Below, in pieces: positions 2,231-52,071 of a stretch of 64,000 nucleotides of DNA. Under the pieces are notes generated by a model that was not told where the DNA came from, ran no database searches, and worked only from the letters and a program-made list of their open reading frames with translations. The stretch is taken from positions 1-64,000 of IMG/VR virus record IMGVR_UViG_3300037070_005035, one strand, 5' to 3'. The stretch is from a virus. A program made the position numbers and the translations under genes. How positions within the stretch are numbered: position 1 is the first letter of the stretch; each line of letters begins with the position of its first letter.

Positions 2231-2250
2231 TGTGGAATAGTATTCCACAA
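2231..2250. promoter_or_regulatory. Dispersed palindrome, copy 1 (TGTGGAATA-G-TATTCCACA)
   Basis: Two perfect 9-base arms around one central base (2231-2249, plus a flanking A). It lies 22-41 bases before the start of the PEP-CTERM-like gene. On the minus strand its centre supplies TACTAT, 17 bases after TTTTCA, so it may be an operator overlapping a weak promoter. Confidence 0.7.
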
Positions 2251-2266
2251 CTACCTCCATGAAAAC

Positions 2267-2283
2267 AAGGCTTTAAGAGCCTT
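2267..2283 (-). terminator. Rho-independent terminator upstream of PEP-CTERM-like gene
   Basis: On the minus strand a 6-bp stem AAGGCT/AGCCTT with a 5-base loop is followed by GTTTT. It insulates the exported-protein gene from the small genes upstream. Confidence 0.65.
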
Positions 2284-2316
2284 CACAAGTTCTGTCCACC
2301 AACTAGTTTCCTCCTT

Positions 2317-2523
2317 TCAGGTCGTGTTGGCCGGGATTGCAGCAGCCAGACTATTGGCATCCGCAATAACTTTATTGCCAAGTTCAATAATCCTGGCTGG
2401 TGCGTTGGCGTTTTCCACGATCAGAGCGCCAAGTAATTAAAACGCCTGTACGGCCGATAAGACCGCATCCGTGTTAGCAGTGACTTTGGTTTCCAGATCG
2501 TCGAGTGCTTCGGTAATTGTCAT
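2317..2523 (-). pseudogene. Small phage gene interrupted by an in-frame TAA
   Basis: An ATG at 2523, after AGGAGA and overlapping the previous stop as ATGA, opens a frame that meets TAA at 2437-2439 after 28 codons. The same frame then continues open for 39 codons to TGA at 2317. The second half (ARIIELGNKVIADANSLAAA, ending NTT) resembles the tail of the adjacent 68-residue protein (ending NTTGEIA), so the whole 67-codon frame looks like a paralogue. One C-to-T change (CAA to TAA) would explain the stop. It is either a recent nonsense mutation, an assembly error, or a readthrough gene; only the 28-residue product is certain. Confidence 0.55.
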
Positions 2524-2726
2524 GCAATTTCTCCTGTGGTATTAACTGCCTCCCGAACGGCACTTTGCAGCTCGGTGGTGGAAGCTTGGATTTTTTCGGC
2601 GATCGATCTCACTTGGGCCGGGTCGCCAGCCGCGGCCATGACCTCAACCATCAGATTGAGGATTTCCAGAACGTAATTGAGCTTGGTATTAACCAGCTTC
2701 AGTACAGCGAATTGATGCGGTTCCAT
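2520..2726 (-). CDS. Small helical phage protein
   Basis: A 68-residue acidic, probably all-helical protein (MEPHQFAVLK start, NTTGEIA end). It sits 7 bases after the CAP-domain gene and its stop overlaps the next ATG. I do not recognise the family. Its C-terminal half resembles the interrupted gene immediately downstream, so the pair probably arose by duplication. Confidence 0.6.
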   Translation of the reverse strand: MEPHQFAVLKLVNTKLNYVLEILNLMVEVMAAAGDPAQVRSIAEKIQASTTELQSAVREAVNTTGEIA

Positions 2727-2733
2727 TGCGGTC

Positions 2734-3471
2734 CTATCTCAAGAATTGCTGAACCCAAAATATCTGGCCAGAATTAGCCAGATAAGCCGCGGCACCCATC
2801 CGAGTATAGCCGGCATTGAGAATATTCGCCCGATGGCCAGAAGAATTCATCCAAGTCTGTAGTGCCTCCGAGGAAGAACGTTGGCCCATGGCGATGTTCT
2901 CCGGGACGCCACCAGCATGCTGCATCCGTTGGTTTCTCGCCATCCACATGGCATGTCTCCGAGCCGATCGCATCAGGCCCCAATCTGCAAGTAGCGGTCG
3001 CCGACCCCAGCGTGCTCGATTCTCGTTAGTGCGGTTGATGACGTTCAGCTCAATAGCCAGCAAGTCTCCCTGCACTGGCTGCACGCTCGTTTGCGGTCGC
3101 ACAATGACCGGGCAGTTCGGCCCGGTACAAGGAGCCTGGTAGTAGATTACTCCCACCGGGACCGGTGCGGGTGCGACTACTGGGCAGGTATCGCAAACTG
3201 GCGGCGCCGCTGGCTGACCTGCACATGATGGTGCCGCGTATCCGGCGCAGCCATGGCTACGCTCTACTCCAGCACAACCATGACTACGAACCTCGCCAGC
3301 ACAGCCGTAAGCTTCGCCAGCACATCCATAGCCACGAGCCTCTCGCCTGGCCATCCTCATTTCCTGTCTCGCCGCTCGGCGAGCCGCCCATCGACCACCC
3401 AAGCAACAATCGGCCTGGATCGAATCGACGCCAAATAACGAACAGATAATGATTAAAAATACTTGCTTCAT
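2734..3471 (-). CDS. Secreted CAP/SCP-domain protein with GCAG repeats
   Basis: A 245-residue protein. Residues 1-20 form a signal peptide. Residues 25-85 are Arg/Ala-rich with five Cys repeats of the form GCAG or SCAG. Residues 86-125 are Pro/Cys-rich. Residues 140-245 are a CAP (SCP/PR-1-like) domain: NENRARWG, HAMWMA with H173, H185, PENIAMG with E191, SSGHRANILN with H213, and a WVQ end. CAP domains are extracellular; their bacterial substrates are largely unknown. Cys-Gly repeats in front of such domains recall planctomycete exported proteins, which supports the host guess. The ATG overlaps the stop of the 48-residue gene upstream (ATGA). Confidence 0.85.
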   Translation of the reverse strand: MKQVFLIIICSLFGVDSIQADCCLGGRWAARRAARQEMRMARREARGYGCAGEAYGCAGEVRSHGCAGVERSHGCAGYAAPSCAGQPAAPPVCDTCPVVAPAPVPVGVIYYQAPCTGPNCPVIVRPQTSVQPVQGDLLAIELNVINRTNENRARWGRRPLLADWGLMRSARRHAMWMARNQRMQHAGGVPENIAMGQRSSSEALQTWMNSSGHRANILNAGYTRMGAAAYLANSGQIFWVQQFLR

Positions 3472-3614
3472 TTCTTCTTCCTCTTCTTGCTAAGTTTTTT
3501 GCCAGTGGAAAAACTTTGATGAGTTGCCGCTTGGCATATCGCGTACGCACTTGCTCCCTTGCCAGCCCTTTTTAGCTTATTGACGCAGCGGTGAACACGG
3601 GTATTTTTCGGCAT
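3468..3614 (-). CDS. Lys-rich 48-residue phage protein
   Basis: The frame runs from the ATG at 3614 to a TGA that overlaps the start of the CAP gene. The protein begins MPKNTRVHRCVNKLKR, has a middle segment AYAICQAATHQS and ends in a tail of nine basic residues. The VHRCVxKLxxxGxxxxxAxAICQ pattern is one I associate with small uncharacterised phage proteins, but no function is known. It overlaps the end of the gene upstream by 38 bases. Confidence 0.6.
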   Translation of the reverse strand: MPKNTRVHRCVNKLKRAGKGASAYAICQAATHQSFSTGKKLSKKRKKK

Positions 3615-3813
3615 GGCACAACTCCATCCACTCATTGGGATCTTGCGATACGAAACTTGGTTCGTAGCTCCAAGTCAGACCCAGACCGGTTTGATAGATC
3701 GCCCTGGCAATACAGGGATTGAATGGCACTATCCTCAACTCGCCATCCTGAGTCCAGCGTACTAGGCATCTCTCGCCGTCCGGCGGTGGATCAAGCAACA
3801 CATCTCGCCACAT
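3577..3813 (-). CDS. Hypothetical protein after a terminator
   Basis: A 78-residue protein starting MWRDVLLDPPPDGERC. The frame is open further up to 3855, but that part carries a strong terminator hairpin, so the start at 3813, just beyond it, is preferred. No promoter between the terminator and this start could be identified with confidence. The family is not recognised. Confidence 0.45.
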   Translation of the reverse strand: MWRDVLLDPPPDGERCLVRWTQDGELRIVPFNPCIARAIYQTGLGLTWSYEPSFVSQDPNEWMELCHAEKYPCSPLRQ

Positions 3814-3833
3814 CGGGTATGTCCATAAAAAAA

Positions 3834-3861
3834 CCAGCGATGTTGGATGGGGCATCGCTGG
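3834..3861 (-). terminator. Strong Rho-independent terminator
   Basis: On the minus strand a perfect 9-bp stem CCAGCGATG/CATCGCTGG with a 10-base loop is followed by seven T residues (3827-3833). It ends transcription arriving from the zinc-ribbon gene upstream. Confidence 0.85.
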
Positions 3862-4116
3862 TCACGAAGGAACGTCCGGAGATCGGAATCTCTGACCGGC
3901 TTATAATATCGGAAAGCCACAGCAATACAATTCCCTTGTTGCCAATCCGACTTTCGGAGGAATATCGCCTGGCGGCACCGCGCGTCCCTGTCAGGCACAT
4001 CTTCGAAAGGTTCCATCCTTACCAGGCGATCCCTCCCCGTGGAATCATGTGTGGACCATATTCCACAAGTCCAGTGCATGCGGATTTTGCCATCCGGAAA
4101 CCACTTCGTCAAGCCT
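3862..4116. other. Stretch without a convincing gene
   Basis: Two minus-strand frames are open here (starts at 4016 and 4000), but both run through the terminator at 3834-3861 and neither has a well-spaced SD. The residue make-up is not persuasive. The only clear element is the palindrome at 4050-4067. Confidence 0.5.
4050..4067. promoter_or_regulatory. Dispersed palindrome, copy 2 (imperfect)
   Basis: TGTGGACCATATTCCACA: the arms TGTGGA/TCCACA are perfect and two inner positions deviate from the family consensus. It follows the stop of the zinc-ribbon gene at 4117. Confidence 0.6.
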
Positions 4117-4401
4117 TTATTCCGATCGATAGCTCTCGATAGTATCCCGCAGGGCCTCCACGACCAGGGGGTAGTTGCCCAAGTCGAGCTTCAGTAAACG
4201 CTCAATAAAGACGTTTTCAAATCCCCTCAAGAACAACCGGCCGTAGTGGCCGCTACGGGTGTTCCAGCCATAAATCGAGCTAAGTCCGCCATAGGGCTGC
4301 GGGCCTGTCGCGCGGCACGTCTCGCAGATGACAACCGATCGGTCGGGGTCCAGGTGTAGGTCATTTTCCCCGCAAAAGGGGCATGGAAAGAGGGCTGGCA
4401 T
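4117..4401 (-). CDS. Lar-like zinc-ribbon protein
   Basis: A 94-residue protein. It begins with CPFCGENDLHLD, then CETCRATGP and a later YGWNTR, which is the layout of the Lar (restriction alleviation) family: two CxxC pairs and a GWN(T/R)R motif. Lar proteins relieve type I restriction of incoming DNA in E. coli prophages; the many phage relatives are mostly untested. Four bases separate it from the fibre gene upstream, with an SD AGAGGAA. The C-terminal 40 residues are outside the conserved core. Confidence 0.7.
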   Translation of the reverse strand: MPALFPCPFCGENDLHLDPDRSVVICETCRATGPQPYGGLSSIYGWNTRSGHYGRLFLRGFENVFIERLLKLDLGNYPLVVEALRDTIESYRSE

Positions 4402-4404
4402 CCG

Positions 4405-6174: not shown

Positions 6175-6177
6175 AGG

Positions 6178-17526: not shown

Positions 17527-19077
17527 CTATACGGGATACATGAAATGAATGACTTCCCCCGTCGCCAGGGGAGGATCGCCAGCCCCTGGGGCTGACACAT
17601 TGGGCGGGGTATTCCAGACAATCGAAGCGCCGGCCTGTAGAAAATGCACACTTACAACGCAACCCGCCAAGTTCGGCCGCGTAATATGGACGGTATTCAA
17701 GGCCAGTGGAGTTGATGGCAGCAGAAAGCTTTGTGAAGCGGCCTCGCCCACGGTGATCGTGTGAATCCCAAACGTCACGCCGCCCACTGCTGGAGAAAAC
17801 CACTCCTGGGCCGTCGCCCCGGCATTCATACGAAGCTGCTGGAGACCGGTACCCTTGGGGATGCGGATTAAGTCGGTACCGTCGTGGCCCAACAAGTCGC
17901 CCTGTGTTGTAAGCGGCAGATCAAGACCAGTGGCGCCAGTGCCGCGCGGATAATCCAACACGAAGACCTGGGAGTGCAGCGCGATATCACTCACGCCGAT
18001 ATAGTAGAAGACTTCCTCTTCGCCTTCATCAGCATGTTCGTAAAGCTCAGTCGTGCTATTCCAGGTATATAGCCGGTCGTTGTCATTCGCTCCATAAATG
18101 AGCGGGCTACCAGGCAGGAGCGAAGTCAGGACGTTGGCGACTTCAGACGAGGAAAAAACTTCGATGTGATTGACATCCGGCACACCGCGCAATGTGGCGA
18201 TCTTCTGCACGTCATTATCAATCGCGGAAACCACCACATACGGCTTGCCATCAGCCGCCCAGGCGATTTGCTTGCCATTCGAGGCCGTCGTTAGGCCGTG
18301 AGCTGGACTGTATACAGTCTGTACGGCAGTGCCATCCGCACCATCCGCTCCATCGGCTCCATCGGCGCCCGGATCGCCCTGTGGTCCAGGATCGCCCTGG
18401 ATACCCTGAATGCCCTGGAGGCCCTGGATACCCTGAATGCCTTGAATGCCCTGTGCGCCGTCTTCGCCATCAACTCCATCAATGCCATTGGTGCCGTTGG
18501 TGCCGTTGGTACCATTAGTTCCAGGAATGCCCTGTATCCCCTGGATACCTTGCGTCCCGGGAGCACCCGCAATTCCCTGGATTCCCTGAACACCTTGAAT
18601 GCCTTGCGGACCTTGCGGACCAACGATCTGGCCGACGTCGACGTAGATCGAGCCATTGCAGACCCACAGGTGGCCAGTATCCTCAGTGATGAGCCCCTCT
18701 CCAGCAACAGCACAACTTCCCGGCAAGCTCCCGGCATCCGGCACACTGCCGGTAATGGTGACACTGGAGCCATCCATTCCGTCCATGCCTGGAACACCCT
18801 GCGCTCCCGCCACGCCCTGGATGCCCTGGATACCCTGTAAGCCGTCCGCGCCGTCCTCGCCATCAATACCATTGGTGCCATCAATACCATTGGTGCCGTT
18901 GGTGCCGTTGATGCCATCCTGGCCATCGACTCCAATCGGCCCCTGGGTGCCTTGCGGGCCCTGCTCACCCGGAAGACCTTGCGCGCCTTGTGGTCCCGGC
19001 GGACCTTGCGGACCAGTTCCACCACCGCCTCCACCACCATCGCAACAGTGGCTTTGCCACCAGTCATTGAGATACAT
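17527..19077 (-). CDS. Collagen-like tail fibre
   Basis: A 516-residue protein: MYLNDWWQSHCCD then a Gly run, followed by two blocks of Gly-X-Y repeats (about residues 18-95 and 150-245, many GIQ, GPQ, GTN and GAD triplets). A short globular insert lies between the blocks, and the C-terminal region is beta-rich. Phage collagen-like segments form trimeric shafts. The start MYLNDWWQSHCCDGGG parallels MPVINDWWITDCTTGGG of the fibre at 20780, so the two share an attachment end. Confidence 0.85.
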   Translation of the reverse strand: MYLNDWWQSHCCDGGGGGGGTGPQGPPGPQGAQGLPGEQGPQGTQGPIGVDGQDGINGTNGTNGIDGTNGIDGEDGADGLQGIQGIQGVAGAQGVPGMDGMDGSSVTITGSVPDAGSLPGSCAVAGEGLITEDTGHLWVCNGSIYVDVGQIVGPQGPQGIQGVQGIQGIAGAPGTQGIQGIQGIPGTNGTNGTNGTNGIDGVDGEDGAQGIQGIQGIQGLQGIQGIQGDPGPQGDPGADGADGADGADGTAVQTVYSPAHGLTTASNGKQIAWAADGKPYVVVSAIDNDVQKIATLRGVPDVNHIEVFSSSEVANVLTSLLPGSPLIYGANDNDRLYTWNSTTELYEHADEGEEEVFYYIGVSDIALHSQVFVLDYPRGTGATGLDLPLTTQGDLLGHDGTDLIRIPKGTGLQQLRMNAGATAQEWFSPAVGGVTFGIHTITVGEAASQSFLLPSTPLALNTVHITRPNLAGCVVSVHFLQAGASIVWNTPPNVSAPGAGDPPLATGEVIHFMYPV

Positions 19078-22898: not shown

Positions 22899-24317
22899 TT
22901 AAACAATCGGGTTGATCGAGGCATCGAAGCCACGAACCAGAACCGTCATCCAGGGACGGGACCAGCCTGGACCTCGCTTGTAGCGATAGACCCGGCGGAA
23001 GAGGATGCCGCGCTCGAGGTAGGCTTCGGTATCAGTACCGGACAGCTCATCCGTAATGATGTCGAAGTCGACCATCCACGAAAACGTGTCTTTAAAGTTC
23101 TTGGAGACAAGGTAAGTATTGGCCGACCAGGCTTCCGCCGTGGCATCATTCTCAGCCGGGCCGAATTCCGTTACACCGCCCGCCCCATCCGGGCACTCAA
23201 ACGTGCAGGTGCGGTAAAACTGGGTCAACTCGTCTTTCATGTAGGCCGAGTATTTTACAGCCGCCGACCAGCCATCACGCGCGGCGCGGGGAGTCGTAAT
23301 TTCAGTCGTGCAGGCATCACCTGTATGCACAAGCTGGGAACCAGCCGCGATCAAGTGTTGATAGGAGTTGATCTGGCATCGCCAGGGAATAGCGAGCTGG
23401 AAATCTCCAGGACAATCCACTGGATCACAAGAGAATGGATCACGGGCCTTTTCCCAAATCTGCTCGATCGCGCACAACAGGGCGTCGTTGCAGCCAGTCA
23501 GTTTGTACTGTGGCCCGCAGACCACATTCGACCACTGACCGCCTTGCGACGCTTGGTAGCCGGATTGGAAGATCACGTCGTCAAGCTGGAATGGATAGGA
23601 ACATCCAAGGCAACCATCCAGGCCAAACATGATCCGCACCCGCGACTTCTCATCCTCACGACCAAAGCCGCGCCGAATCGCCCCGTCCATGAGATCAGAT
23701 ACTTGTTCCGTGCCACCCACGCAACGCAGGTTGCGATGGAGGGCGAAGCCGATCTTACTGGTACACAGCCGCGGCATCTTCCAGCAACGGGTGTCACCCA
23801 GGCCGACCCACAGGATTTCCATGTCGTCTTCGGAATCCTCATCGCAGGGGGCTGCGATACGCGGTTCGATGATCTCGCAGACTCGGCGGTTATCAAAATC
23901 TGAGCAAGTTCGATCGACCCGCGTAAAGCAGTCGGCCAAGTTGAACGGTGATGCCTGACAGGCAAGCTGAGAAAAGGTTGTCTGCACACACCGATCAAAA
24001 TACTGATCCCAGTTGGAAGCCTTGATCGCGATAGCCGCTTCCCGCAACTCGGAAGCATTCGGGCTACGGGCAAAGATACCAGCCGGGTTGTGGGGAAGCT
24101 GAGCCAGCGTTCGTTCAAAGACGTAATCCAGATCAACGTTTTGAATCCTCCACGGCTCAGCCTTCTTGTCCTGAAAGCCTTGCGTGAATTCATCCTCGAA
24201 TCGTTCGAGCACGGCTCCCGCCGCCTCTTCAGTCTTGCACTCCTTGATGGCGGTGCCACCGTCCAGGCCATCCTGGAAAGACTTGACTAGAAAATCATTG
24301 ACATTGACGGTGGGCAT
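22899..24317 (-). CDS. Probable major capsid protein
   Basis: A 472-residue acidic protein without enzyme motifs (MPTVNVNDFLVKSFQDGLDG...), with many Cys. Its size and its place directly after the portal, protease/scaffold and decoration-like genes, and before a terminator, are those of a major head protein. I cannot confirm an HK97 fold from sequence. An alternative is another abundant head or neck protein. Confidence 0.6.
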   Translation of the reverse strand: MPTVNVNDFLVKSFQDGLDGGTAIKECKTEEAAGAVLERFEDEFTQGFQDKKAEPWRIQNVDLDYVFERTLAQLPHNPAGIFARSPNASELREAAIAIKASNWDQYFDRCVQTTFSQLACQASPFNLADCFTRVDRTCSDFDNRRVCEIIEPRIAAPCDEDSEDDMEILWVGLGDTRCWKMPRLCTSKIGFALHRNLRCVGGTEQVSDLMDGAIRRGFGREDEKSRVRIMFGLDGCLGCSYPFQLDDVIFQSGYQASQGGQWSNVVCGPQYKLTGCNDALLCAIEQIWEKARDPFSCDPVDCPGDFQLAIPWRCQINSYQHLIAAGSQLVHTGDACTTEITTPRAARDGWSAAVKYSAYMKDELTQFYRTCTFECPDGAGGVTEFGPAENDATAEAWSANTYLVSKNFKDTFSWMVDFDIITDELSGTDTEAYLERGILFRRVYRYKRGPGWSRPWMTVLVRGFDASINPIV

Positions 24318-24362: not shown

Positions 24363-24941
24363 TTAGTCAGTCGCGCAACCACAAGCCGGGTTGCACCAAC
24401 GAGCCACAATCTTTTGGCCGAGCGGATACACATGGGCCGCAAAAGCGGTACCAGTCGAGACATCGATCTTGGCAGCGTCGACAGCACAGCCATCATCAGC
24501 GAACGGGCCACACAGCGGAGGGTCCTGGCAGACCGTCAAGACCGCGTTGGCGCCGCCCGTGACGGCGAATTTGTGATTGGAGACATTGCCATCGGTATCA
24601 ATGAACGGAGCCAGCAGCGTACCTTTCGGCGCGGCCACCGCTGCCGAGAGATAAACCTCCACGGCGCCGGCATGATAAACAGTGACCTTCTTACCACTCG
24701 TGACACCAGTTCCGCGGGCATGCCAACTCGCATCCGAGTAACCCACGAAAGCGGCGGCCGCGGCGGCTACCGTGGTAAAGCTGGAGAACGGCCGCACCAT
24801 GCCATTGGCATCCGCACCCAACGGCGGACGATCGACACCCACACCATAGTGCGGGTCAGTCAGATAACGAGATTTGCGGGAATCGTCGTCCGATACCCAC
24901 ATGCCGAGAATATCACTACAAACACCAGGCAATAGCGCCAT
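24363..24941 (-). CDS. Probable head decoration protein
   Basis: A 192-residue protein (MALLPGVCSDILGMWVSDDD...). An Ala-rich segment (TTVAAAAAAFVGYS), TSGKKVTVYHAG and PKGTLLAPFIDTDGN suggest a beta-rich small capsid-associated protein. It sits between the protease/scaffold and the capsid gene, where lambda-D-type proteins are found. GGAG precedes the ATG, and a perfect 20-base palindrome stands 26-45 bases upstream. Confidence 0.5.
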   Translation of the reverse strand: MALLPGVCSDILGMWVSDDDSRKSRYLTDPHYGVGVDRPPLGADANGMVRPFSSFTTVAAAAAAFVGYSDASWHARGTGVTSGKKVTVYHAGAVEVYLSAAVAAPKGTLLAPFIDTDGNVSNHKFAVTGGANAVLTVCQDPPLCGPFADDGCAVDAAKIDVSTGTAFAAHVYPLGQKIVARWCNPACGCATD

Positions 24942-24966: not shown

Positions 24967-24986
24967 CTGTGGAATATATTCCACAG
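24967..24986. promoter_or_regulatory. Dispersed palindrome, copy 3 (perfect 20 bases)
   Basis: CTGTGGAATATATTCCACAG reads the same on both strands. It lies in the 57-base gap between the protease/scaffold stop and the decoration-protein start, and its centre is TATATT. Confidence 0.8.
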
Positions 24987-32996: not shown

Positions 32997-34268
32997 CCAG
33001 GCTGGTATGATTCCATCATCCCAATGCGAGTTAACATGAAACCCCGAGGGTATCGCCCACGCCGGGGTGGATAAAAACTCAGACCAATTTCCACCACTAA
33101 CCAAACTCAATAGAAACTCCTTGTTTTTAAGCCTAAACATCACTTCTACACAACTTTCTTGGCAAATCGCTTTACCAACTAACACCAACCACCGAGATAA
33201 CCCCGAATCGCTCCCCAATTTTCCCACCACTTTTTCCACTCTTTTCATCCCAACCAGGTCAAATCGGCACCCATTTCTACCCCCCTTCCTTGTCCTGCTG
33301 GTACAGCGATTCTCCTTGGCGCCTAGAACGCCATCAATTCCTTCCACCCCGTGAAAATCGACTCTACTGGTATGATAGCCAAAACCAATGAACCAAACAA
33401 AGACACCACCCAGACACCCCCGACGCCGCAGCTTACCGAAGCGGCCGACAGAATCTCCCTCCCCATACCGCAAACCACCACAAGACTACTCAGAACCCTA
33501 GAAGGGACCCATAAACAAGCAATAAAGCAAACAATAGCCTCAATAACAGCTCCTAGGTAGAACTAAGCACAAATATGCAAGAAAAGGCCAGAAAAGGAAG
33601 ACTAAATAGAGTCAACAATAGAACCAAGAACAGACAAAGAAACAGAAACTCAGGATAAAACAGGAACCGCCGATAAACACCGCCTCCAGTGGCGCGAGGG
33701 TCCCTCTCCACCCACTGGGCTTTCTGTGTGTGTGGAGGGTCCCTGATTGAATCAAACACCTGCCGTCCGCCAGCAGCCAGTAGCGTCACGATTCTTAGCT
33801 AGATTCGAAATAGACTGGAAAACAAGCTGGTTTTGATGAGAAGCAAGGCAATTGACAAGGCGGAGTTGTGGAATAGTGTTCCACAACTATTGGCCGATGA
33901 CGGAAGGAGATGGCGCAACGTAGTGGCCTAGGAATGCATATAGAGAGCATCTAATGGGCGCATCGCCTTTTGCCACTACTGGTTTCTCTTGCTTCTCTGT
34001 TGCTTCTCTTGAGCGACTTTCGCCCCCTTTGGCTACTCTTCTACCTTCACTCAAATTCCCCTCCCTGCTTCATGCTAGCTTAATTCCTTGTGGCCTAGCC
34101 TACTAGTCTTCCGCTCTTAGTGGTCGATCCGCTGGTTTTAGTCTTGTGGCGCTGACTGGGATTCTGATCGGCCGCTAGCCTTGGACCTTGCATCTTCCTT
34201 GCAGATAGCCTTTTTCTACTGGGAATGCCGCTTATTTTGGAATTCCTGTAAAAAGGAAATAATACCGC
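32997..34268. other. Mostly non-coding region between the divergent halves
   Basis: About 1.3 kb with no confident gene. Frames on both strands exist (minus 32988-33473, plus 33351-33560, minus 33553-33789) but lack SD sites and family features. Seen here: a -10-like TGGTATGAT at 33003-33011 and at 33364-33372, a repeated GAGGGTCCCT near 33698 and 33737, a promoter plus palindrome at 33852-33888, and a pyrimidine-rich stretch with TTGCTTCTCT repeats around 33990-34060. A replication or regulatory region is possible. Confidence 0.5.
33852..33888 (+). promoter_or_regulatory. Promoter overlapped by dispersed palindrome, copy 4
   Basis: TTGACA at 33852-33857, a 16-base gap, then TAGTGT at 33874-33879. 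The palindrome AGTTGTGGAA-TAGTG-TTCCACAACT (33864-33888, perfect 10-base arms) covers the spacer end and the -10. A protein bound there would block the polymerase. A short frame follows (33910) but no convincing gene. Confidence 0.7.
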
Positions 34269-37234: not shown

Positions 37235-37654
37235 ATGGAACGACGCGCCATGTGGATTTACCAAACGTACTTATTGAACGACAGCGAGAAGCTGATTAAG
37301 TTCTTCTACGATCACGCGGGGTCGTCGCATAACCCAAGCGTGGAAACGCTAGAGCAAGGTCGATTGCGGGGCGCAAAGGAATTGGCCATCGCGGCGTATC
37401 GCGCTATCGACGAGGGGTTGTCGTTCGAATGGAATATCGACCTCGGCGACGACTCGTCTAGTTTCAACGACGACCCGGACCCGTGGCAATTGTGGTACTG
37501 CTGGTGCCGAGATGCGGACGGCAAGGTAGTTGCATCGCTATGCAGTATCGATTTCGGTCGCGATGGTGCGCCATGGGAAGATCCGTATCGGCGCGTCGTC
37601 GAGGCTGAGCTGGCGCAAGAATACTTCGCGTCGGTCGCGGATGAATCACGATAA
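37235..37654 (+). CDS. Hypothetical acidic protein
   Basis: A 139-residue protein with AGGAGG upstream (MERRAMWIYQTYLLNDSEKL...). A C-terminal alpha/beta part contains WQLWYCWCRDADGKVVASLC. Not recognised. The palindrome at 37656 follows its stop directly. Confidence 0.5.
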   Translation: MERRAMWIYQTYLLNDSEKLIKFFYDHAGSSHNPSVETLEQGRLRGAKELAIAAYRAIDEGLSFEWNIDLGDDSSSFNDDPDPWQLWYCWCRDADGKVVASLCSIDFGRDGAPWEDPYRRVVEAELAQEYFASVADESR

Positions 37655-37655
37655 A

Positions 37656-37677
37656 GTTGTGGAACATATTCCACACT
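37656..37677. promoter_or_regulatory. Dispersed palindrome, copy 5
   Basis: AGTTGTGGAACATATTCCACACT: TGTGGAACA/TATTCCACA with one mismatch. It lies between two rightward genes, 57 bases before the start at 37734. Confidence 0.7.
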
Positions 37678-38832: not shown

Positions 38833-38850
38833 TGTGGTCAGTTGACCACA
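38833..38850. promoter_or_regulatory. Dispersed palindrome variant, copy 6
   Basis: TGTGGTCA-GT-TGACCACA: perfect 8-base arms sharing TGTGG/CCACA with the family but TCA/TGA instead of AA(T)/(A)TT. It lies 26-43 bases before the start of the PEP-CTERM gene. Confidence 0.6.
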
Positions 38851-38875: not shown

Positions 38876-39790
38876 ATGAAATGCTTAATGATTCTGATGG
38901 CGTGCCTGATTGCGCCACTTAGCGCGCAGGCGCAACGGTATGGCGGATCGATGCAAGCTGGCCGGCTGGGAATGGAAGTTGGCGGCGGACAGTCATCGTT
39001 CCGTTTCCAAAACCTGATACCGACCTGGCAAGCCGAAATATCGGTGGACAAGACACAGCGCGTCACGCTTCACGAGCTGACGATAAACTACGCCGGGCGA
39101 CTGGATTTTCAAGCCCATGACGGACTGGTCTACATGGATGTCGAGATGACATTGACAGCACCGGATTCGCTCGATCTCAATCCGATTCAAATAGCTCCGC
39201 ATGCATTTGCCATCGAGCGATTTGATTTCGATATGGCGATTAGTGGAACTTACGTCAACCATGGATTTGAAAAACAATTCAGCGCTGATTTTACCGAATC
39301 GACCAGCACGAATGATCTACAACTTTCGTTTGCCAATTTCCCGGCTTCGCTTGTGCTGAGTGAGTTTAGTACGGCTGGTGGAGCTAGATACTGGTCACTT
39401 AATGGACCAATCGAGCTAGAACCGCAGCTATTCATTTACTATGCGACGCATGGCCATGCGGCGGATCTGAACCTGATGCTCCTGCCACTGCCGCCAGAGG
39501 AATTGGAAGATCCGCTGGGCGATTCTAATCGCGACGGACGATTCGATTCCGGCGACTTGGTAGTGGTCTTTCAAGCTGGCCAATATGAGGACTCGCTGAT
39601 ATTCAATTCCACCTGGGAGACGGGCGACTGGAACGGCGACAAGGAATTCGATTCGGGCGATCTGGTCGCGGCATTCACGGCGGGCGAGTATGTCAACCAA
39701 GCGGTTGCCGTGCCTGAGCCAGTGTCGATCGGGCTCGTGGTGGGAGCATTCGTGTGGATGGCATCGCGCATCAGGAAGAGTGTGAAATAA
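38876..39790 (+). CDS. Exported PEP-CTERM protein with dockerin-like repeats
   Basis: A 304-residue protein. Residues 1-20 (MKCLMILMACLIAPLSAQAQ) form a signal peptide. Residues 30-210 are a beta-rich domain with LTLTAPDSL-like strands. Two EF-hand/dockerin-like Asp motifs follow (DSNRDGRFDSGDLV and DWNGDKEFDSGDLV). The end is VPEP, a 20-residue hydrophobic segment and RIRKSVK, a full PEP-CTERM signal. Proteins of this design are typical of planctomycetes, where exosortase-type enzymes process them at the envelope. In a phage they are likely cargo expressed by the lysogen. The gene stands alone between terminators with a palindrome before it. Confidence 0.88.
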   Translation: MKCLMILMACLIAPLSAQAQRYGGSMQAGRLGMEVGGGQSSFRFQNLIPTWQAEISVDKTQRVTLHELTINYAGRLDFQAHDGLVYMDVEMTLTAPDSLDLNPIQIAPHAFAIERFDFDMAISGTYVNHGFEKQFSADFTESTSTNDLQLSFANFPASLVLSEFSTAGGARYWSLNGPIELEPQLFIYYATHGHAADLNLMLLPLPPEELEDPLGDSNRDGRFDSGDLVVVFQAGQYEDSLIFNSTWETGDWNGDKEFDSGDLVAAFTAGEYVNQAVAVPEPVSIGLVVGAFVWMASRIRKSVK

Positions 39791-41514: not shown

Positions 41515-42531
41515 ATGTCGAGTCTGACGAAACGACCGAGCGGCATTTACTGGCTGCAATTTACCCTTGACGGACGGAAGCATACAAGGAGCCTGGGCCG
41601 GATAGATCGCGGCCTGGCGATGAGCATTTGTGGGAAGTTTGAAACATTGATGAGCGAAGGAAAGACGGGGCAAGCCATGGAGACAGTCACCGCTCAGGTC
41701 GCTCCCGAGCAGCGACAGTCAATGATTCATCTATGGGTGCAAGAATATCTGAAGGCCCTGGGCTGCAAGCCAGCCACGATGAAGACGCACTACCAAACCC
41801 TGGACCTGCTAACGGCTCAGTTCGGCACGTGCTCATTCCGGGATGTGGATTTCACTGGAGCACAAAAATTCGTAGCGTCACTCGGTCGATTCGCCGGGTC
41901 GACGCGGGCGAAGCATATCAGTCGAACCCGGCAATATTTCGATGCCGCAATCGATAGCGGAATCATCAGCAAGAATCCGTTTGAGTCATTTAAGTGCGGT
42001 AGTCAGCACAACCCGACACGATCACATTTCGTCAGCCGGGAGGACTACGAGAAACTCATGGCAGCCGCACCGAACCAAACGCTGAGGACAATCATCTCCT
42101 TGTCGAGAATCGGCGGCCTACGAATTCCGAGCGAGCTGCGCGGGCTCAAGTGGACAGATATCGAAGCGGAAAAGATTTCGATCACGGGACACAAGACAGC
42201 CAGTCGCGCGTTCCCGATGTTCCCGGAGCTGAAGGAAGAACTAAACGCGCTCAGTAGGAATCGCATGAACAATGGTACAGTAATCTCATATGACGGATGT
42301 TTGACCTATGCACTCCGGCAAATCATCCAACTGGCCGGATTGAAACGGTGGCCGAGAATTTGGCACAACATGCGAGCCTCTCGGATTACCGAGCTGAGTG
42401 ACAAATTCCCTGTCCAAGTCGTGTCTACCTGGATGGGAAATTCGCCTGAAATCGCACTTCGACATTATCTCTCAGTGACAGATTCCCACTGGGAACAAGC
42501 CTTAAACGAGACGCGACAGGACAGAACATGA
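41515..42531 (+). CDS. int: Tyrosine recombinase (phage integrase)
   Basis: A 338-residue protein. The N-terminal arm-binding-type part is GIYWLQFTLDGRKHTRSLGR. A core-binding domain follows (about 65-165), then the catalytic domain with R203 (GGLRIPSEL), K227, H284-x-x-R287 (IWHNMRAS), W306 (TWMGN) and nucleophile Y318 (LRHYLSVTD). It would integrate and excise the phage at an att site. The last eight residues (NETRQDRT) are encoded by the start of a GACNN array, so the native C-terminus may have been replaced. A TTGACC/TATTAT pair lies so close to the ATG that it may not be its promoter. Confidence 0.93.
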   Translation: MSSLTKRPSGIYWLQFTLDGRKHTRSLGRIDRGLAMSICGKFETLMSEGKTGQAMETVTAQVAPEQRQSMIHLWVQEYLKALGCKPATMKTHYQTLDLLTAQFGTCSFRDVDFTGAQKFVASLGRFAGSTRAKHISRTRQYFDAAIDSGIISKNPFESFKCGSQHNPTRSHFVSREDYEKLMAAAPNQTLRTIISLSRIGGLRIPSELRGLKWTDIEAEKISITGHKTASRAFPMFPELKEELNALSRNRMNNGTVISYDGCLTYALRQIIQLAGLKRWPRIWHNMRASRITELSDKFPVQVVSTWMGNSPEIALRHYLSVTDSHWEQALNETRQDRT

Positions 42532-42613: not shown

Positions 42614-42633
42614 CTGTGGAATATAAACCACAA
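42614..42633. promoter_or_regulatory. Dispersed palindrome, copy 7 (degenerate)
   Basis: CTGTGGAATATAAACCACAA: outer arms TGTGG/CCACA kept, inner right arm changed. It lies between array 1 and csrA, 22-41 bases before its start, with TATAAA at the centre. Confidence 0.55.
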
Positions 42634-42654: not shown

Positions 42655-42909
42655 ATGCTAGTTTTAGGACGACGAAGAAATGAATCAATTACCGTAGTAA
42701 CTCCGAGCGGCGAGCGGATCGATTTTAAAATCGTGACCATCGATGGCGGATACGCGAGAATTGGCATCACGGCCGAGAGGACGATACAAATTTACAGAAG
42801 TGAACTAGGAGAACGAGAACATGGGACTGAAGGACAGATCGGGCGCGAAATGGCTGCAGCTAACACGGGGCCGCTTAGTCCTCAAATCAAAGGACGGAAC
42901 GACCAGTGA
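42655..42909 (+). CDS. csrA: CsrA-family RNA-binding regulator
   Basis: An 84-residue protein. MLVLGRRRNESITVV is the CsrA N-terminus, and GYARIGITAERTIQIYRSEL matches the second half with its RNA-binding Arg. The family core ends near residue 55; about 29 extra residues overlap the next gene in another frame. CsrA dimers bind GGA motifs in mRNA leaders and change translation or stability. A GACNN array and a palindrome precede the gene (AAGG serves as SD). Phage-borne csrA could control phage or host messages. Confidence 0.88.
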   Translation: MLVLGRRRNESITVVTPSGERIDFKIVTIDGGYARIGITAERTIQIYRSELGEREHGTEGQIGREMAAANTGPLSPQIKGRNDQ

Positions 42910-45063: not shown

Positions 45064-45287
45064 AAGGAAAGGTGAACATGAAGAACCTGCGCATTGAATT
45101 CCAGGAATACCGCCAAGCCTGTTACGGCGATCAGGAAATTTCTGATGGCCCACTCAGAGAGATCGAGCAGGCATTTCTATCAGGTATACACCTGGCGCTG
45201 AACCGGCCACTGCTGAAGCCGAACATGATCAGCATTCAGAAACAGATCAAAGCCCGCCTACTTGAATTAGGAGCCATCACGAAATGA
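45060..45287 (+). CDS. Hypothetical small protein
   Basis: A 75-residue protein; the first ATG overlaps the previous stop and a second in-frame ATG follows at residue 7 after AAAGG. Helical with QEYRQACYGDQEISDG. Its stop overlaps the next start. Not recognised. Confidence 0.5.
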   Translation: MKGKVNMKNLRIEFQEYRQACYGDQEISDGPLREIEQAFLSGIHLALNRPLLKPNMISIQKQIKARLLELGAITK

Positions 45288-45841
45288 AACACGAAGTCGA
45301 ACTAGGGAAGCTAATCGAATCGCTGCAGCAGCGGGACGCCGTGCATGTGGCAGTGGCGCCGGTAATGGCTGCTGAGGAACTGTATCCAGGTCAGCACATC
45401 GGTTTTGTGGAAGGAACGAATGAACAAGTCAGAGGAGTCGCGAGGCTGATTGGAGTCGTGGACCCATTTCTGGAAAATAATGTTTTACCCGGCCAGAGGT
45501 TCTGGATGTTCCTTTATCCAAATACAATCACTGGCCTGCGGCACGACTGGTCACATCCGGCATTCAATAGCGAGGCCAGCAATCCCACTGGCGATCTAAA
45601 TTTCGATGCCGCCTGTATCGTGGCCAGGATGTGCGGCAAGACATACGAAGCCCTCATGGACGACGCCTATCGATGCGTTGGCAATGGGACCAATAAGTAC
45701 GGCGACTATATCATGGACAACTCCGAGCGGTACAAGGGCGTCGGATATGACTTGTGGAAACAGTTCTGGAAACACTACGAGCAAGTCCATGATGTAAAGC
45801 TGGAAGAAGAATACGACGCGCCTTACACGTGCAGTTGCTAA
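45284..45841 (+). CDS. Hypothetical protein with RFWMFLYP motif
   Basis: A 185-residue protein. The first half (AVAPVMAAEELYPGQHIGFV, VDPFLENNVLPGQRFWMFLYP, NTITGLRHDWSHPAF) resembles a family I have seen in environmental phages and planctomycetes without function. The second half is helical (MCGKTYEALMDDAYRCVG) and acidic, ending TCSC. Confidence 0.5.
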   Translation: MKHEVELGKLIESLQQRDAVHVAVAPVMAAEELYPGQHIGFVEGTNEQVRGVARLIGVVDPFLENNVLPGQRFWMFLYPNTITGLRHDWSHPAFNSEASNPTGDLNFDAACIVARMCGKTYEALMDDAYRCVGNGTNKYGDYIMDNSERYKGVGYDLWKQFWKHYEQVHDVKLEEEYDAPYTCSC

Positions 45842-48073: not shown

Positions 48074-48427
48074 TTGAATACGGCAATCAAAATAATCGGA
48101 AGCCAAAGTGCTGAGCGACTGGCCGCGATCCGTGGACCGATCCGACCCATTTGGATAAGTGATCAAGAATTAGAAATCATGATTCAGTGTTTGCAGCCAA
48201 GCCCAACCGACATCGACTTCCTGGCTGAGCGGAATATCCGATGGTCAGGGTCTATGTTGGAATCATTGAAGCGGGAGCAGGAGCTACGCAGGAGTAAGAA
48301 GTTGATCCACGACCTGGGAGGGAAGCTGCAATACCAGCTAAAGGCCCATGTCGACACAACGGACACTGTTAAGGAGATCTTAAGTGCCCAGGAAAGAATT
48401 AACGCTATCGAATCATCAGCCATCTAA
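48074..48427 (+). CDS. Hypothetical helical protein, TTG start
   Basis: The TTG at 48074, 8 bases after GAAAG, is preferred to an upstream ATG that lies inside array 9. 117 residues: MNTAIKIIGSQSAERLAAIR..., ISDQELEIMIQCLQP, then a long charged helix (ESLKREQELRRSKKLIHDLG). Possibly a coiled-coil accessory protein. It overlaps the next start by 44 bases. Confidence 0.5.
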   Translation: MNTAIKIIGSQSAERLAAIRGPIRPIWISDQELEIMIQCLQPSPTDIDFLAERNIRWSGSMLESLKREQELRRSKKLIHDLGGKLQYQLKAHVDTTDTVKEILSAQERINAIESSAI

Positions 48428-49289
48428 AGTCGACTTGGCCTGGATGCCGCCTGGCAAGCGGACTCGGCTGGGAGAGATCTCAAGCAGGCTAAAGGAGAAT
48501 GATATTCAAGGGGCCAGGTGGCTAATCATCAAAGCGGAGCTGGTTGCGGAAGCAAAGGGGATTTTCGATGCCCACTCAGGCAAGACGGAAACCTGGGGTG
48601 GCTGGTGTGAGCAGAATGATATGGATCGCAGTTTATCGTACCATCTGATATCGATTTGGGAGAGATTTTCCACCGCCAGTGGGCTGCTGGAGAATTTCAG
48701 CGTATCGGCCATTCGGCATCTGGGGGTGTGTAGCTCGGACCAGCCGGCCAAGCATGCCATCATATTGGCCACGGATGGCGAGTTCGTTTCATTTTCAACG
48801 GCCAAGCAGATTGTATCCAAGTGGACGGAAGGCGGAGCGGCGGCGATGAGCCAAGCTGCTGATGATGACGAAGCGGACGAGGCGCCAGTTAGTAGCGCCC
48901 CCGCCGCTCCGCGGCAACTCCTTCCTGGAGGAAATGATAGTCCTGGGGGAGGCGGGCGGGAGCCGGTGCGGTCTGCCGGAGGAGGCAGGGAATCGGCGCC
49001 GGCCATTAACCGTGGCACGACCGTTTCGTACACACCAGCGACGACTGCAAAACCAATCAAGGAATCCTGCATAGGCAAGGAATTCAATCCGATCAATCAA
49101 ATCATACGTGCGAAGGAAAAGATCAACCAACTAATGCGGATTCTGGATGAAGAGGATCTAAAGCCGACATTAGGCCAGAGGTGGAACGCCGGACTTGTGA
49201 ATCTCTGCGATCAATTACTTAAATCATTGGGAGACGCGGAGAAAAATGTCTATCGAAAACTCGAACAACGGCAGGGGAAAAGAAATTGA
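48384..49289 (+). CDS. Hypothetical DNA-binding-like protein
   Basis: The GTG at 48384 has AAGGAG 8 bases upstream and gives 301 residues. RLGEISSRLKENDIQGARWL and WGGWCEQNDMDRSLSYHLISIWERFSTASG resemble phage DUF3102/ParB-associated proteins in which a helical domain recognises DNA. A low-complexity Ala/Gly/Pro middle (150-215) and a C-terminal helical domain follow. Role unknown; it is next to a regulator gene. Confidence 0.5.
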   Translation: MPRKELTLSNHQPSKVDLAWMPPGKRTRLGEISSRLKENDIQGARWLIIKAELVAEAKGIFDAHSGKTETWGGWCEQNDMDRSLSYHLISIWERFSTASGLLENFSVSAIRHLGVCSSDQPAKHAIILATDGEFVSFSTAKQIVSKWTEGGAAAMSQAADDDEADEAPVSSAPAAPRQLLPGGNDSPGGGGREPVRSAGGGRESAPAINRGTTVSYTPATTAKPIKESCIGKEFNPINQIIRAKEKINQLMRILDEEDLKPTLGQRWNAGLVNLCDQLLKSLGDAEKNVYRKLEQRQGKRN

Positions 49290-49482
49290 TTTTAGGTCCA
49301 TGATAGCCCGTGAGCTGAAGCGCCAAGAAAAGAGCGTGACTTGGTTGGCCCAACAGGGTGGGTGTCCACATCGAAATAGCATTTATCGATTTCTGCGCAA
49401 GGAGCGGGACGTGAGATCAGCGTCATTGGCGGCGATGCTGCGAGCCCTGGGACTTCACATGATCGGACAATATGGAAAATGA
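49246..49482 (+). CDS. XRE-like helix-turn-helix regulator
   Basis: A 78-residue protein with GGAG before the ATG. KSVTWLAQQGGCPHRNSIYR and RDVRSASLAAMLRALGL form a compact five-helix HTH like Cro/CI-type repressors. It overlaps the previous gene. It is the only small HTH regulator in the window, so it is a candidate ligand of the dispersed palindromes; this is inference. Confidence 0.7.
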   Translation: MSIENSNNGRGKEIDFRSMIARELKRQEKSVTWLAQQGGCPHRNSIYRFLRKERDVRSASLAAMLRALGLHMIGQYGK

Positions 49483-49492
49483 CAGATAACAT

Positions 49493-49572
49493 CACGCGAC
49501 TAGACCGGACTAGACATGACGAGATTTGACCGGACTGGATGGGACCAGACGAGACGCCACAAGACTTGATTT
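49493..49572 (+). repeat. GACNN array 10
   Basis: Ends CCAGACGAGACGCCACAAGACTTGATTTA, a terminus repeated exactly at the end of array 11. No gene follows before array 11 begins. Confidence 0.9.
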
Positions 49573-49579
49573 ACATTTG

Positions 49580-49759
49580 AGACAACCCGACGCGACTCGG
49601 CACGACCAGAAGCGACTTGACAGGACGAGACCTGACTAGACAAGACTTGACTAGACCGGACGAGACAAGACTGGACTGGACTTGACCAGACGTGACCTGA
49701 TGGGACTAGGTCTGGCCCGACAAGATGCGACCAGACGAGACGCCACAAGACTTGATTTA
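49580..49759 (+). repeat. GACNN array 11
   Basis: About 36 units, with an internal GACTAGACAAGACTTGACTAG that resembles a terminus. It ends GCCACAAGACTTGATTTA just before the gene at 49774. Confidence 0.9.
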
Positions 49760-49773
49760 CCATGGAGCTTGCA

Positions 49774-50004
49774 ATGGATTTCCTGGCTGACCTCCGCACC
49801 AAGCGTGATCAATTGATATTTGACGACTGGATGGGAGATCGATACGGCATCCTGGTCCGGCCAGACAGTAGCCTGCCGGACTGGGGTGCCAGGCTGGAAA
49901 GCCACGGAGTGGCCGTGGGAGTGGAGGCACATCGATCACTGCTGGAGTACCAGGAGTTCATCCGCAAAGGCCGCTGCTCGATCTCGGATGCCGAGCTGAA
50001 TTAG
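49774..50004 (+). CDS. Hypothetical protein
   Basis: The ATG at 49774 has GGAG 6 bases upstream (the alternative ATG at 49762 has none). 76 residues: MDFLADLRTKRDQLIFDDWM, SLPDWGARLESHGVAVGV and a helical end. Not recognised. The next gene starts 4 bases after its stop. Confidence 0.5.
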   Translation: MDFLADLRTKRDQLIFDDWMGDRYGILVRPDSSLPDWGARLESHGVAVGVEAHRSLLEYQEFIRKGRCSISDAELN

Positions 50005-50008
50005 GGCC

Positions 50009-50203
50009 ATGCCTAAGCGGAAAGAAATAGATTGGGCTCACTGCATCATGTGCGGCATGCCGAGAGTATTTTCCGAAGACCCTGACTTGTGCGCTTTGTG
50101 TTGGTTTGGATGCCAACCCGACGAGATCGCCAATCTTATGACCATCGAATCCGATTGGACTCCAGAACAGGATGCGGAACCGGGATGGCTCGACGAACGA
50201 TAA
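50009..50203 (+). CDS. Small zinc-binding protein
   Basis: A 64-residue protein: HCIMCGMPRVFSEDPDLCAL and CWFGCQPDE give a zinc site of paired Cys; acidic tail. It overlaps the next start by 19 bases. Not recognised. Confidence 0.55.
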   Translation: MPKRKEIDWAHCIMCGMPRVFSEDPDLCALCWFGCQPDEIANLMTIESDWTPEQDAEPGWLDER

Positions 50204-50496
50204 AACACAAGCCAAGAACCGTCAATTCACCGCAATACCGCCATTCAGATGGATCGGTGAATACATTGTTTGACGCCTTGTTGGACTTCGAATCAGATCA
50301 GCACTTCCGCCCACGCCGTACCAAGCCCACCGATGCCCCGCCTGGCACACCGGAAAAGATCTCCGTGCTCTCCACTCGCCTCGAGCGCGGCGAGGAGCTG
50401 CACCACGAGAATGATTACCGCTACCCGACTCCGCCGCATTGGATGATGATCATCCAGGATATCGAAGATGAAGTATTTCAGCAGAAAATGAGGTAA
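50185..50496 (+). CDS. Hypothetical protein
   Basis: The ATG at 50185 gives 103 residues (MARRTIKHKPRTVNSPQYRH...), with a basic front, acidic middle and a helical end (PPHWMMIIQDIEDEVFQQKM). A longer frame from 50089 overlaps the gene before and is rejected. Its stop is followed immediately by a palindrome. Confidence 0.45.
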   Translation: MARRTIKHKPRTVNSPQYRHSDGSVNTLFDALLDFESDQHFRPRRTKPTDAPPGTPEKISVLSTRLERGEELHHENDYRYPTPPHWMMIIQDIEDEVFQQKMR

Positions 50497-50497
50497 A

Positions 50498-50522
50498 AGT
50501 TGTGGAACAGTATTCCACAACT
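50498..50522. promoter_or_regulatory. Dispersed palindrome, copy 8
   Basis: AGTTGTGGAA-CAGTA-TTCCACAACT, perfect 10-base arms with a 5-base centre, the same form as copy 4. It separates the plus-strand gene ending at 50496 from the inverted array 12. Confidence 0.8.
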
Positions 50523-50533
50523 AACGAAAGGGA

Positions 50534-50600
50534 AATCAAGTCTTGTCGCGTCCTGTCGAGTCAAATCGGGTCTTGTCGTATCCTGTCAAGTCGCGTCTTA
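50534..50600 (-). repeat. GACNN array 12, inverted
   Basis: The units read GTCNN on the plus strand. On the minus strand the array ends GACAAGACTTGATTT, the standard terminus, but no minus-strand gene starts after it. It follows the minus-strand gene at 50626-51108, so array orientation follows the flanking gene. Confidence 0.85.
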
Positions 50601-50625
50601 ATTCAGTCAACGTTGCGTCAGCGCG

Positions 50626-51108
50626 CTATTCTCCCCACGTACTTGGTTCCTGCAGTAAATCCAGCAGTAGTTTCAACCTAGGATCACGCTTGGCCGGCTG
50701 CGCTGCCAACCAGATTAAATACTCACGATCAATGGCCATGACTTCGGCTACTGATTTTCCTTTGTACTTGCCAAACCAGAATTTTAGCTCGTCGCCATTA
50801 GGAGCAACATTCGAATCAGCTAGCTCGAAATTACCACTTGCTCGTGCGCGACGGCCAAGATCGCGATCATTGTATTTCGACCAATCATCACGCGGCATCT
50901 CAGCGTTCCCTTGCCGCATCCCAATACGTCTCATACGCTTCGTACAAACATCACGTACATCGATCGCATCCCTACATCGCTTCCAAATCCGTCTCGCGCC
51001 CCGAACCCCAAGCTCGCCGAAGACCGTCGAAGCTGGTACCAACTTTCCGACTTGGAAGGCGCGGGCAACCAGCGTGAGTCGTGTCGTTTCCACTGTTATT
51101 TTCTGCAA
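50626..51108 (-). CDS. Protein with DUF3820-like C-terminal domain
   Basis: A 160-residue protein. The C-terminal 60 residues contain KFWFGKYKGKSVAEVMAIDR and EYLIWLAAQ, the (F)GKYKGxx-EV---DxxYLxWL signature of the DUF3820 small domain that occurs alone or attached to exonucleases. The N-terminal 95 residues are basic and not recognised. It is the only minus-strand gene within the array region. Confidence 0.6.
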   Translation of the reverse strand: MQKITVETTRLTLVARAFQVGKLVPASTVFGELGVRGARRIWKRCRDAIDVRDVCTKRMRRIGMRQGNAEMPRDDWSKYNDRDLGRRARASGNFELADSNVAPNGDELKFWFGKYKGKSVAEVMAIDREYLIWLAAQPAKRDPRLKLLLDLLQEPSTWGE

Positions 51109-51467
51109 TTAGGCAATTGCTAGCATAAAGGGGGCCTAGGAAATAATGTGTAAGTCTTAGCCAGATGGCCCTTTGGCCCCTTATTACCGTCCTAACGAGA
51201 ACGGGCGAGTGCCGCGACCCCTGCGGTCGAAGTTATCTTCGGTTCACCCGGCCTAGATCATGTCATCGTGCCGGTTGTGCATGACTGGCCGGCTTGCCAA
51301 GCCAGCGCTTACAGCCAAGAATTTCATATTGCCAGGCGACCGAACCACCAGCGACCTGGCAATAATCTTTTCACAGCCGTTGTTAGTCATGCTCTCGCGC
51401 TACCACCGAGCTACTAATTACACCGGGAATTCTAACTGTACACGCTTCCCGGACGCGCATTAAAAAA

Positions 51468-51491
51468 CCCCCAGCTTTTGAGGGCTGAGGG
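51468..51491. terminator. Bidirectional Rho-independent terminator
   Basis: CCCCCAGC-TTTTGAGG-GCTGAGGG, an 8-bp stem with one mismatch, with A residues before (51462-51467) and CTGTTTTT after. It can stop transcription from either side. Confidence 0.7.
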
Positions 51492-51695
51492 CTGTTTTTG
51501 CGTTGTACACGGCCACGTGCAAGGACGCAAAGCTTCAAATTGTACATGTCGCCATCCTTGTGATGTGGCCGTGTCTTCCTGACAGAATCTTATCTCACCT
51601 TCACCATCGCGTCAACTTTCCTCTTGTAAAATTTCACGAACATTTCAGATAATCAATCTTAACCGCCCGCGTGGGCGGTTAGCTGTGCCCGCAGC

Positions 51696-51733
51696 GGAGG
51701 TCGATTAGTTTGCCCCATCGGCCTCCAATTTTT
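51696..51733 (+). terminator. Rho-independent terminator
   Basis: GGAGGTCGAT (51696-51705) pairs with ATCGGCCTCC (51717-51726) with one G-T wobble, an 11-base loop, and a T-run at 51729-51733. Confidence 0.75.
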
Positions 51734-51789
51734 CCATCAAAAGCGAAATTACCATCGAAATAGATCGCCGTCTAGTTTTTGGTGAATAA

Positions 51790-52020
51790 TTAAATTTCGT
51801 TTCTGTCTAGGCATATTTCAACGACTTTTCGGCACATTTCAATGTCAAAGAAGCCGATGTAACAATCACCAACTGGTATTTCTAACTGACGTGCGAGCCA
51901 GGACTTAGCGGCACGCCGATCTTCTATATCACCAAAGCTCCAGATCCTGTCGAACGCGGCAATTGCCCTCTTTCTGGCTCCATCAAGCACCATCTCTTGA
52001 CCAAATTCGCACATGCACAT
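51790..52020 (-). CDS. Hypothetical protein under its own promoter
   Basis: The ATG at 52020 gives 76 residues (MCMCEFGQEMVLDGARKRAI...). Helical; contains RQLEIPVGDCYIGFFDIEMC. Not recognised. The longer frame from 52062 overlaps the palindrome and promoter. A promoter at 52059-52087 reads into it. It is the second minus-strand gene in this otherwise plus-strand region. Confidence 0.5.
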   Translation of the reverse strand: MCMCEFGQEMVLDGARKRAIAAFDRIWSFGDIEDRRAAKSWLARQLEIPVGDCYIGFFDIEMCRKVVEICLDRNEI

Positions 52021-52052
52021 TGATAGATTTCCTTTGACATTCGGTTGAAAGT

Positions 52053-52071
52053 TGTGGAACACTATTCCACA
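52053..52071. promoter_or_regulatory. Dispersed palindrome, copy 9
   Basis: TGTGGAA-CACTA-TTCCACA, perfect 7-base arms. It covers the -10 box of the leftward promoter at 52059-52087, 33-51 bases before the start at 52020. Confidence 0.8.

Follow-up and report, generated by a model that had tools for sequence, protein, structure and literature searches.

Dispersed inverted TGTGGAAYA half-sites in an uncultured bacterial virus: a likely operator set for one dimeric regulator

The occurrence of a dispersed palindrome in the record of an uncultured bacterial virus (IMG/VR record IMGVR_UViG_3300037070_005035; 68,260 bases) was analysed. The window, that is the whole stretch of DNA under analysis, comprises positions 1 to 64,000 of this record, whose genes include those for a large terminase subunit and for a portal protein. 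Eight strong copies of the palindrome, beginning at 2231, 4050, 24968, 33867, 37658, 42615, 50501 and 52053, were found. They are best read as a dispersed operator set for one dimeric regulator, which is probably a repressor encoded by the phage, with an estimated probability of about 0.57. A genome-wide operator set had been put forward in the original prediction, and it was the best fit to the lack of solo half-sites, the intergenic position of 8/8 strong sites, the lack of RNA covariation and the parallel set in a second phage record (G001); the likeness to stoperators held in idea only.

Exact matches to TGTGG-N8/9-CCACA numbered ten in the window, six of the N8 class (4050, 23509, 24968, 37658, 38833 and 42615) and four of the N9 class (2231, 33867, 50501 and 52053). 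The TGTGG/CCACA arms did not occur in the window at any other spacing from 0 to 19. Among 200 dinucleotide shuffles, no match was obtained in 180, one in 17 and two in 3, which gave a mean of 0.1 against the ten observed. When two mismatches were allowed in the N8 class, 26 matches were observed for 27.9 expected, so the significance is limited to the exact form. All nine places originally predicted carry the exact arms; four of the nine positions were exact while five were off by 1-3 bases from the true TGTGG starts given here, and a tenth exact-arm match was overlooked. This tenth match (23509-23526) has exact outer arms only, lies inside the structural-block gene 22899-24317 and outside the set, and is probably due to chance.

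A matrix scan placed the eight strong copies at scores of 30-39, apart from the rest, and the doubtful copy at 38833 at 17.1, the top score in 20 random sequences being 20.2. This matrix was built from nine of the scored sites and the scan is partly circular; its informative part is therefore the empty score range beneath the strong sites. The window held no new place above 17 and no tail of degenerate copies, and the final 4,260 bases of the record held no further palindrome copy.

The unit of the strong sites is a 9-base-pair (bp) half-site, TGTGGAAYA, present as two inverted copies. These half-sites are separated by 0 bp in four strong sites and by 1 bp (G or C) in the other four, and the same half-sites are retained at both spacings, so that the 18-bp and 19-bp site classes correspond to the 0-bp and 1-bp centres. 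Outside the half-site a preference for A at -3 and for G/T at -2/-1 was seen. Exact half-sites occur 14 times in the 68,260-base record, all 14 of them within the eight strong palindromes; no solo copy was found, where simple base counting would give about one. Such a pattern fits a dimer-dependent site and differs from that of a monomer site or of scattered DnaA boxes. At the strong sites 4050 and 42615 the deviation is confined to one arm and has no matching change opposite.

Intergenic sequence makes up 15.6% of the window, and 8/8 strong sites fall within it (p ~3e-7). The starts of genes 1610-2206 and 51790-52020 were set at the ATG behind a ribosome-binding site; their longest reading frames would overlap the sites at 2231 and 52053. 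Most copies had been expected 20-60 bases before a start codon. This is so for six of the nine, whose next start is 22-58 bases away (2231, 24968, 37658, 42615, 52053 and the doubtful 38833), but not for 4050 (194 bases), 33867 (565 bases) or 50501, which stands between converging genes.

The predicted -10-like hexamers consist for the most part of inner half-site sequence, and good -35 elements accompany them at 33867 and 52053. The presence of TTGACA and TTGGCA at these two sites was confirmed. On the plus strand, TTGACA (33852-33857) is followed after 16 bases by TAGTGT within the strong palindrome 33867-33885, the whole element spanning 33852-33885. On the minus strand, TTGGCA (52087-52082) is followed after 17 bases by the same hexamer, TAGTGT, within the strong palindrome 52053-52071 (element 52053-52087). 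A -35 match of at least 5/6, placed 16-18 bases from an in-palindrome hexamer, was present in 2/16 orientations of the strong sites, for a chance of 0.0157 each.

In the proposed mechanism, one homodimeric DNA-binding regulator would occupy all eight palindromes. Each subunit would read one 9-bp half-site TGTGGAAYA, and the dimer would tolerate 0 or 1 bp between them, giving the 18- and 19-bp classes. Most likely the phage itself would encode this regulator, which would repress during the prophage state; the record has a tyrosine integrase gene (41515-42531 of the window). At 33867 and 52053 the site would overlap the -10 element and binding would block initiation. At 50501 and at the sites just 5' of start codons within gene blocks, a nearby start would be blocked or the bound protein would form a roadblock.

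The parallel set was found in G001, a phage record of 50,152 bases. It carries nine copies of TGTGGAAA(AT/TA)TTTCCACA, six as TGTGGAAAATTTTCCACA and three as TGTGGAAATATTTCCACA, plus one unrelated exact-arm match. The two versions are distinguished by their central two base pairs, which switch jointly (AT to TA). GTGGAA-N4-TTCCAC was counted ten times in G001 against nine perfect copies, indicating that one further copy is degenerate. Three of its palindromes adjoin GGAGG before a start, two precede minus-strand genes, and the palindrome at 22966 lies four bases 3' of TTGCGC-17-TATAAT. The likeness of its proteins to those of the window is distant only (terminase 27%, helicase 23%, nuclease 34%). 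Among the matches listed in viral contigs, with 125 loci screened, several copies of the core were present in G001 only. A second core copy was found in none of ten records with the N3-N4 extended pattern and in none of fifteen with the half-site pattern, the latter scan covering both the 18-bp and the 19-bp class. The scan for the palindrome with AGGAG returned six stretches, two in G001 and four as single copies in other records.

No close relative by DNA was found among phages, and queries with the terminase, the helicase or the helix-turn-helix (HTH) protein found no viral relative. The protein encoded at 45284-45841 retrieved four distant relatives (G027-G030). The core palindrome was present in 0/4 of these distant relatives. 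One of the four, G028, has a stronger helicase likeness than G001 yet is without the set, which indicates that the set does not track helicase likeness. The palindromes of the window record and G001 were either transferred, or arose twice, or reflect one host regulator met by both; no common regulator of the two was found by protein comparison or with the HTH_3 and HTH_IclR profiles.

The operator reading is favoured by the ten exact matches against 0.1 expected, the separation of the eight strong sites, the confinement of exact half-sites to the palindromes, their retention at both spacings, the intergenic position, the one-arm deviations at 4050 and 42615, the two -35 matches, the integrase gene, the joint change of central base pairs in G001 and the lack of planctomycete matches to the extended motif. 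Several points weigh against it. A rigid dimer would not usually accept two spacings, and six of the eight strong sites are without a convincing promoter (a good -35) in register. No close relative was found in which site conservation could be checked, and the TGTGGAA core palindrome is lacking in G027-G030. No regulator was identified; the sole HTH candidate is weak, and the HTH_3 and HTH_IclR profiles gave nothing over the cut-off in the window record or G001, the best PF09339 (HTH_IclR) match being 14.2 bits (E 0.0028) at 33414-33503 of the window record. The HTH candidate is encoded on the plus strand at 49246-49482 and has 78 residues. Its family matches are weak (PHROG 4268, E 0.0021; antidote family, E 0.0069; Pfam HTH_31, E 0.041), its best PDB match (E 1.5) is not convincing, and its model has four helices at low confidence (mean predicted local distance difference test score, pLDDT, 55.8). 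No relatives of this protein were found and no palindrome was present at the start of its gene. It may be regarded as a weak candidate for the palindrome-binding protein.

The window record and G001, which have only distantly alike proteins, both show dispersed TGTGGAA-core palindromes before genes of both blocks. It is conceivable, with perhaps one chance in five, that a class of regulator so far undescribed, encoded by phage or host and tolerating the 18-/19-bp spacing, serves both phages as a symmetric counterpart of the stoperator system, silencing the genome at short gaps.

A low chance, about one in six, was given to operators of a host regulator adopted by the phage, for example of the IclR kind. 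The pairing of dockerin and PEP-CTERM is a typical planctomycete trait. The product of 38876-39790, a gene with the doubtful copy 38833-38850 (exact outer arms, GGTCA/TGACC inside) 25 bases 5' of it, is dockerin-like with a sub-threshold PEP-CTERM tail match, which points to a planctomycete as the probable host of the phage. The extended motif TTGTGGAAYA-N0/1-TRTTCCACAA was met at nine scattered places in genome_contigs, whose carriers by title are Proteobacteria, an Eggerthellaceae bacterium, Chloroflexi, CPR3, Dormiibacterota and an archaeon. As none of these nine matches is a planctomycete by title, the extended motif does not appear to be a common host element in that form; degenerate host sites would escape such a search, and the host itself is deduced from the protein pairing. 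A motif core common to both phage records, with no shared regulator found, is expected of a host protein. The IclR family has even and odd sites with the group-2 consensus TGRAACA-N1-2-TGTTYCA, and the E. coli AllR motif is KTTGGAAWAWTWTTCCAAC (PMC8222616). Within the 19-bp sites, the inner stretch (TGGAAYA-S-TRTTCCA) is close to this consensus, and a host regulator therefore stays in play. The four 1-bp sites fit the group-2 core with Y for C, and the four 0-bp sites do not. Compared with the IclR/AllR group-2 operators of E. coli as given there, the phage sites are alike in the inner TGGAAYA...TRTTCCA and in even/odd spacing; they differ in that the half-sites run 2 bp further outward (TGTGG, an extra outer TG/CA) and stand 0-1 rather than 1-2 bp apart, half of the strong sites at 0 bp being beyond N1-2 (PMC8222616). 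No IclR-type HTH was over the cut-off in the phage record; a host protein would be compatible with this.

Hairpins acting as RNA in 5' leaders, where they would stabilise messages or tune translation with the DNA palindrome being incidental, are an improbable explanation, at odds of around one in nine. All sites can be folded as RNA at -5.8 to -18.5 kcal/mol, as any palindrome can, six of nine lie 22-58 bases 5' of a start, and three of nine G001 copies adjoin GGAGG just 5' of a start. The alignment of the nine sites showed no excess of pairing over shuffled 3' letters (cells paired 154/500, covariation 64/500), a comparison of low power. Arm pairing was far above that of partners slid by 1-3 columns, as expected of any palindrome, and both-side changes at inner arm positions trace to the doubtful site 38833 alone. 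The covariation result counts against a pure hairpin role, and with nine sites it weakens the RNA reading rather than removing it. The would-be unpaired loop bases are conserved as half-site sequence, the site at 50501 sits at 3' ends, and 33867 lies 565 bases from a gene. In G001 the dyad symmetry extends into the very centre, at positions that could not pair in an RNA loop.

Paired DnaA boxes, which would offer host DnaA numerous binding places on the phage, are very unlikely. The consensus of the box is TTWTNCACA, and boxes are normally single and in clusters. Read as TRTTCCACA, the half-site differs from this consensus at one position, and TTTTCCACA, which occurs in six of nine G001 palindromes, fits it exactly. 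In the window record, however, no half-site stands solo, the consensus matches three times and never within the palindromes, and TTATCCACA occurs once there and once in G001, both times outside the palindrome sets. Equally unlikely are plasmid-type partition or replication sites bound by a ParB-like protein. Dispersed symmetric sites do occur in some phage-plasmids, and the G001 protein encoded at 17814-18689 reads like ParB from its sequence; against this, the window record has an integrase, no Pfam family is matched by the protein it encodes at 48384-49289, and partition does not require sites ahead of start codons. Activator sites of the P2 Ogr type (TGT-N12-ACA) were ruled out, as sites 22-58 bases from the start leave no room at -55, and CsrA sites were ruled out with GGA in the stem and not in the loop.

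With regard to known systems, the phage repressor of Streptomyces phage phiC31 binds dispersed conserved inverted repeats, which apparently differ in sequence from the window sites. A specific site at many intergenic places, the general trait of the dispersed operator sets of P1, L5 and phiC31, is present here. The stoperators of L5 are described as more than 20 asymmetric 13-bp sites, predicted to be monomer-bound and oriented with transcription (PMC9283540, PMC6550527). The window set and the L5/cluster A stoperators both consist of one sequence repeated at scattered places of a temperate phage, in promoters and short intergenic gaps (PMC9283540, PMC6550527), and the originally proposed comparison stands to that extent. 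It fails in the form of the sites, which here are eight symmetric 18/19-bp sites of inverted 9-bp half-sites; being near-symmetric, they have no orientation with transcription, unlike those of L5. On the protein side, where an L5-type system has a cognate immunity repressor with an HTH and a stoperator domain, only the weak 78-residue HTH candidate was seen, no search having been aimed at the stoperator domain. Phage P1 has 22 C1 operator sites with an asymmetric 17-bp consensus, and is alike in carrying many dispersed repressor sites on one temperate phage; the window sites differ in being inverted half-sites (PMC8546580). The arrangement is of a known kind and of unusual, symmetric shape. 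Among the papers listed in literature searches, which are no proof of absence, none described the motif or dispersed palindromic phage operators. Few phages are known to have dispersed operator sets, and in L5 and P1, compared here, the sites are asymmetric. In a phage of a poorly studied host group, a set that is symmetric and has two fixed spacings would offer a ready handle on lysogeny control, and the eight sites could serve as clean bait in a search for the regulator.

The window has a minus-strand gene block at about 1.6-33 kilobases (kb) and a plus-strand block at 34.4-60.3 kb, within which a small island of minus-strand genes lies at 50.6-52.1 kb. In the minus block, the palindrome 2231-2249 (TGTGGAATA G TATTCCACA; 1-bp centre) is 24 bases 5' of the likely start of minus gene 1610-2206, whose product has no Pfam match and looks like a signal-peptide/PEP-CTERM protein from its sequence. 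A CAP-superfamily (cysteine-rich secretory) protein is encoded at 2734-3471 (Pfam E 3.5e-12). The site 4050-4067 (0-bp centre, one arm imperfect) lies 49 bases beyond the end of minus gene 4117-4401 and 194 bases before 3577-3855, and the perfect 0-bp dyad 24968-24985 is in the structural block between minus genes 24999-26000 and 24363-24941, 26 bases before a start. The palindrome 33867-33885, with a 1-bp centre and 10-bp arms (AGTTGTGGAA/TTCCACAACT), occupies the long gap separating the minus and plus blocks. In the plus block, 37658-37675 (0-bp centre) is 3 bases past the stop of 37235-37654 and 58 bases before 37734, and 42615-42632 (0-bp centre, right inner arm imperfect) is 22 bases 5' of a CsrA-family gene (42655-42909), which directly follows it.

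The site 50501-50519 (1-bp centre, 10-bp arms) is placed between the converging genes 50089-50496 (plus) and 50626-51108 (minus). At the other end of the minus island, the promoter-like palindrome 52053-52071 (1-bp centre) lies 32 bases 5' of the likely start of minus gene 51790-52020, whose DUF3268 match covers only profile positions 63-118 of 121. Inside the island, about 500 bases of the minus strand (51130-51640) hold no convincing gene. Near 51470 the sequence reads as a hairpin with a T-run, near 51390 as a tRNA-like stretch, and the region may possibly be a small RNA; it gave nothing from Rfam at the gathering threshold or from ARAGORN, and the Rfam search of the window returned no match.

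Degenerate pentanucleotide arrays, (GACNN)n, were also observed between 42570 and 52248, the unit being GAC or GAT plus two bases, with 23 runs of at least 5 units. At least 6 consecutive units were found in 0/164 fetched loci. In the plus block the runs occupy gaps or overlap short reading frames; one run is on the minus strand. Many of the arrays terminate in GACAAGACTTGATTT (11 exact copies and 2 with C replacing the first G), and these ends are often immediately 5' of a start codon.

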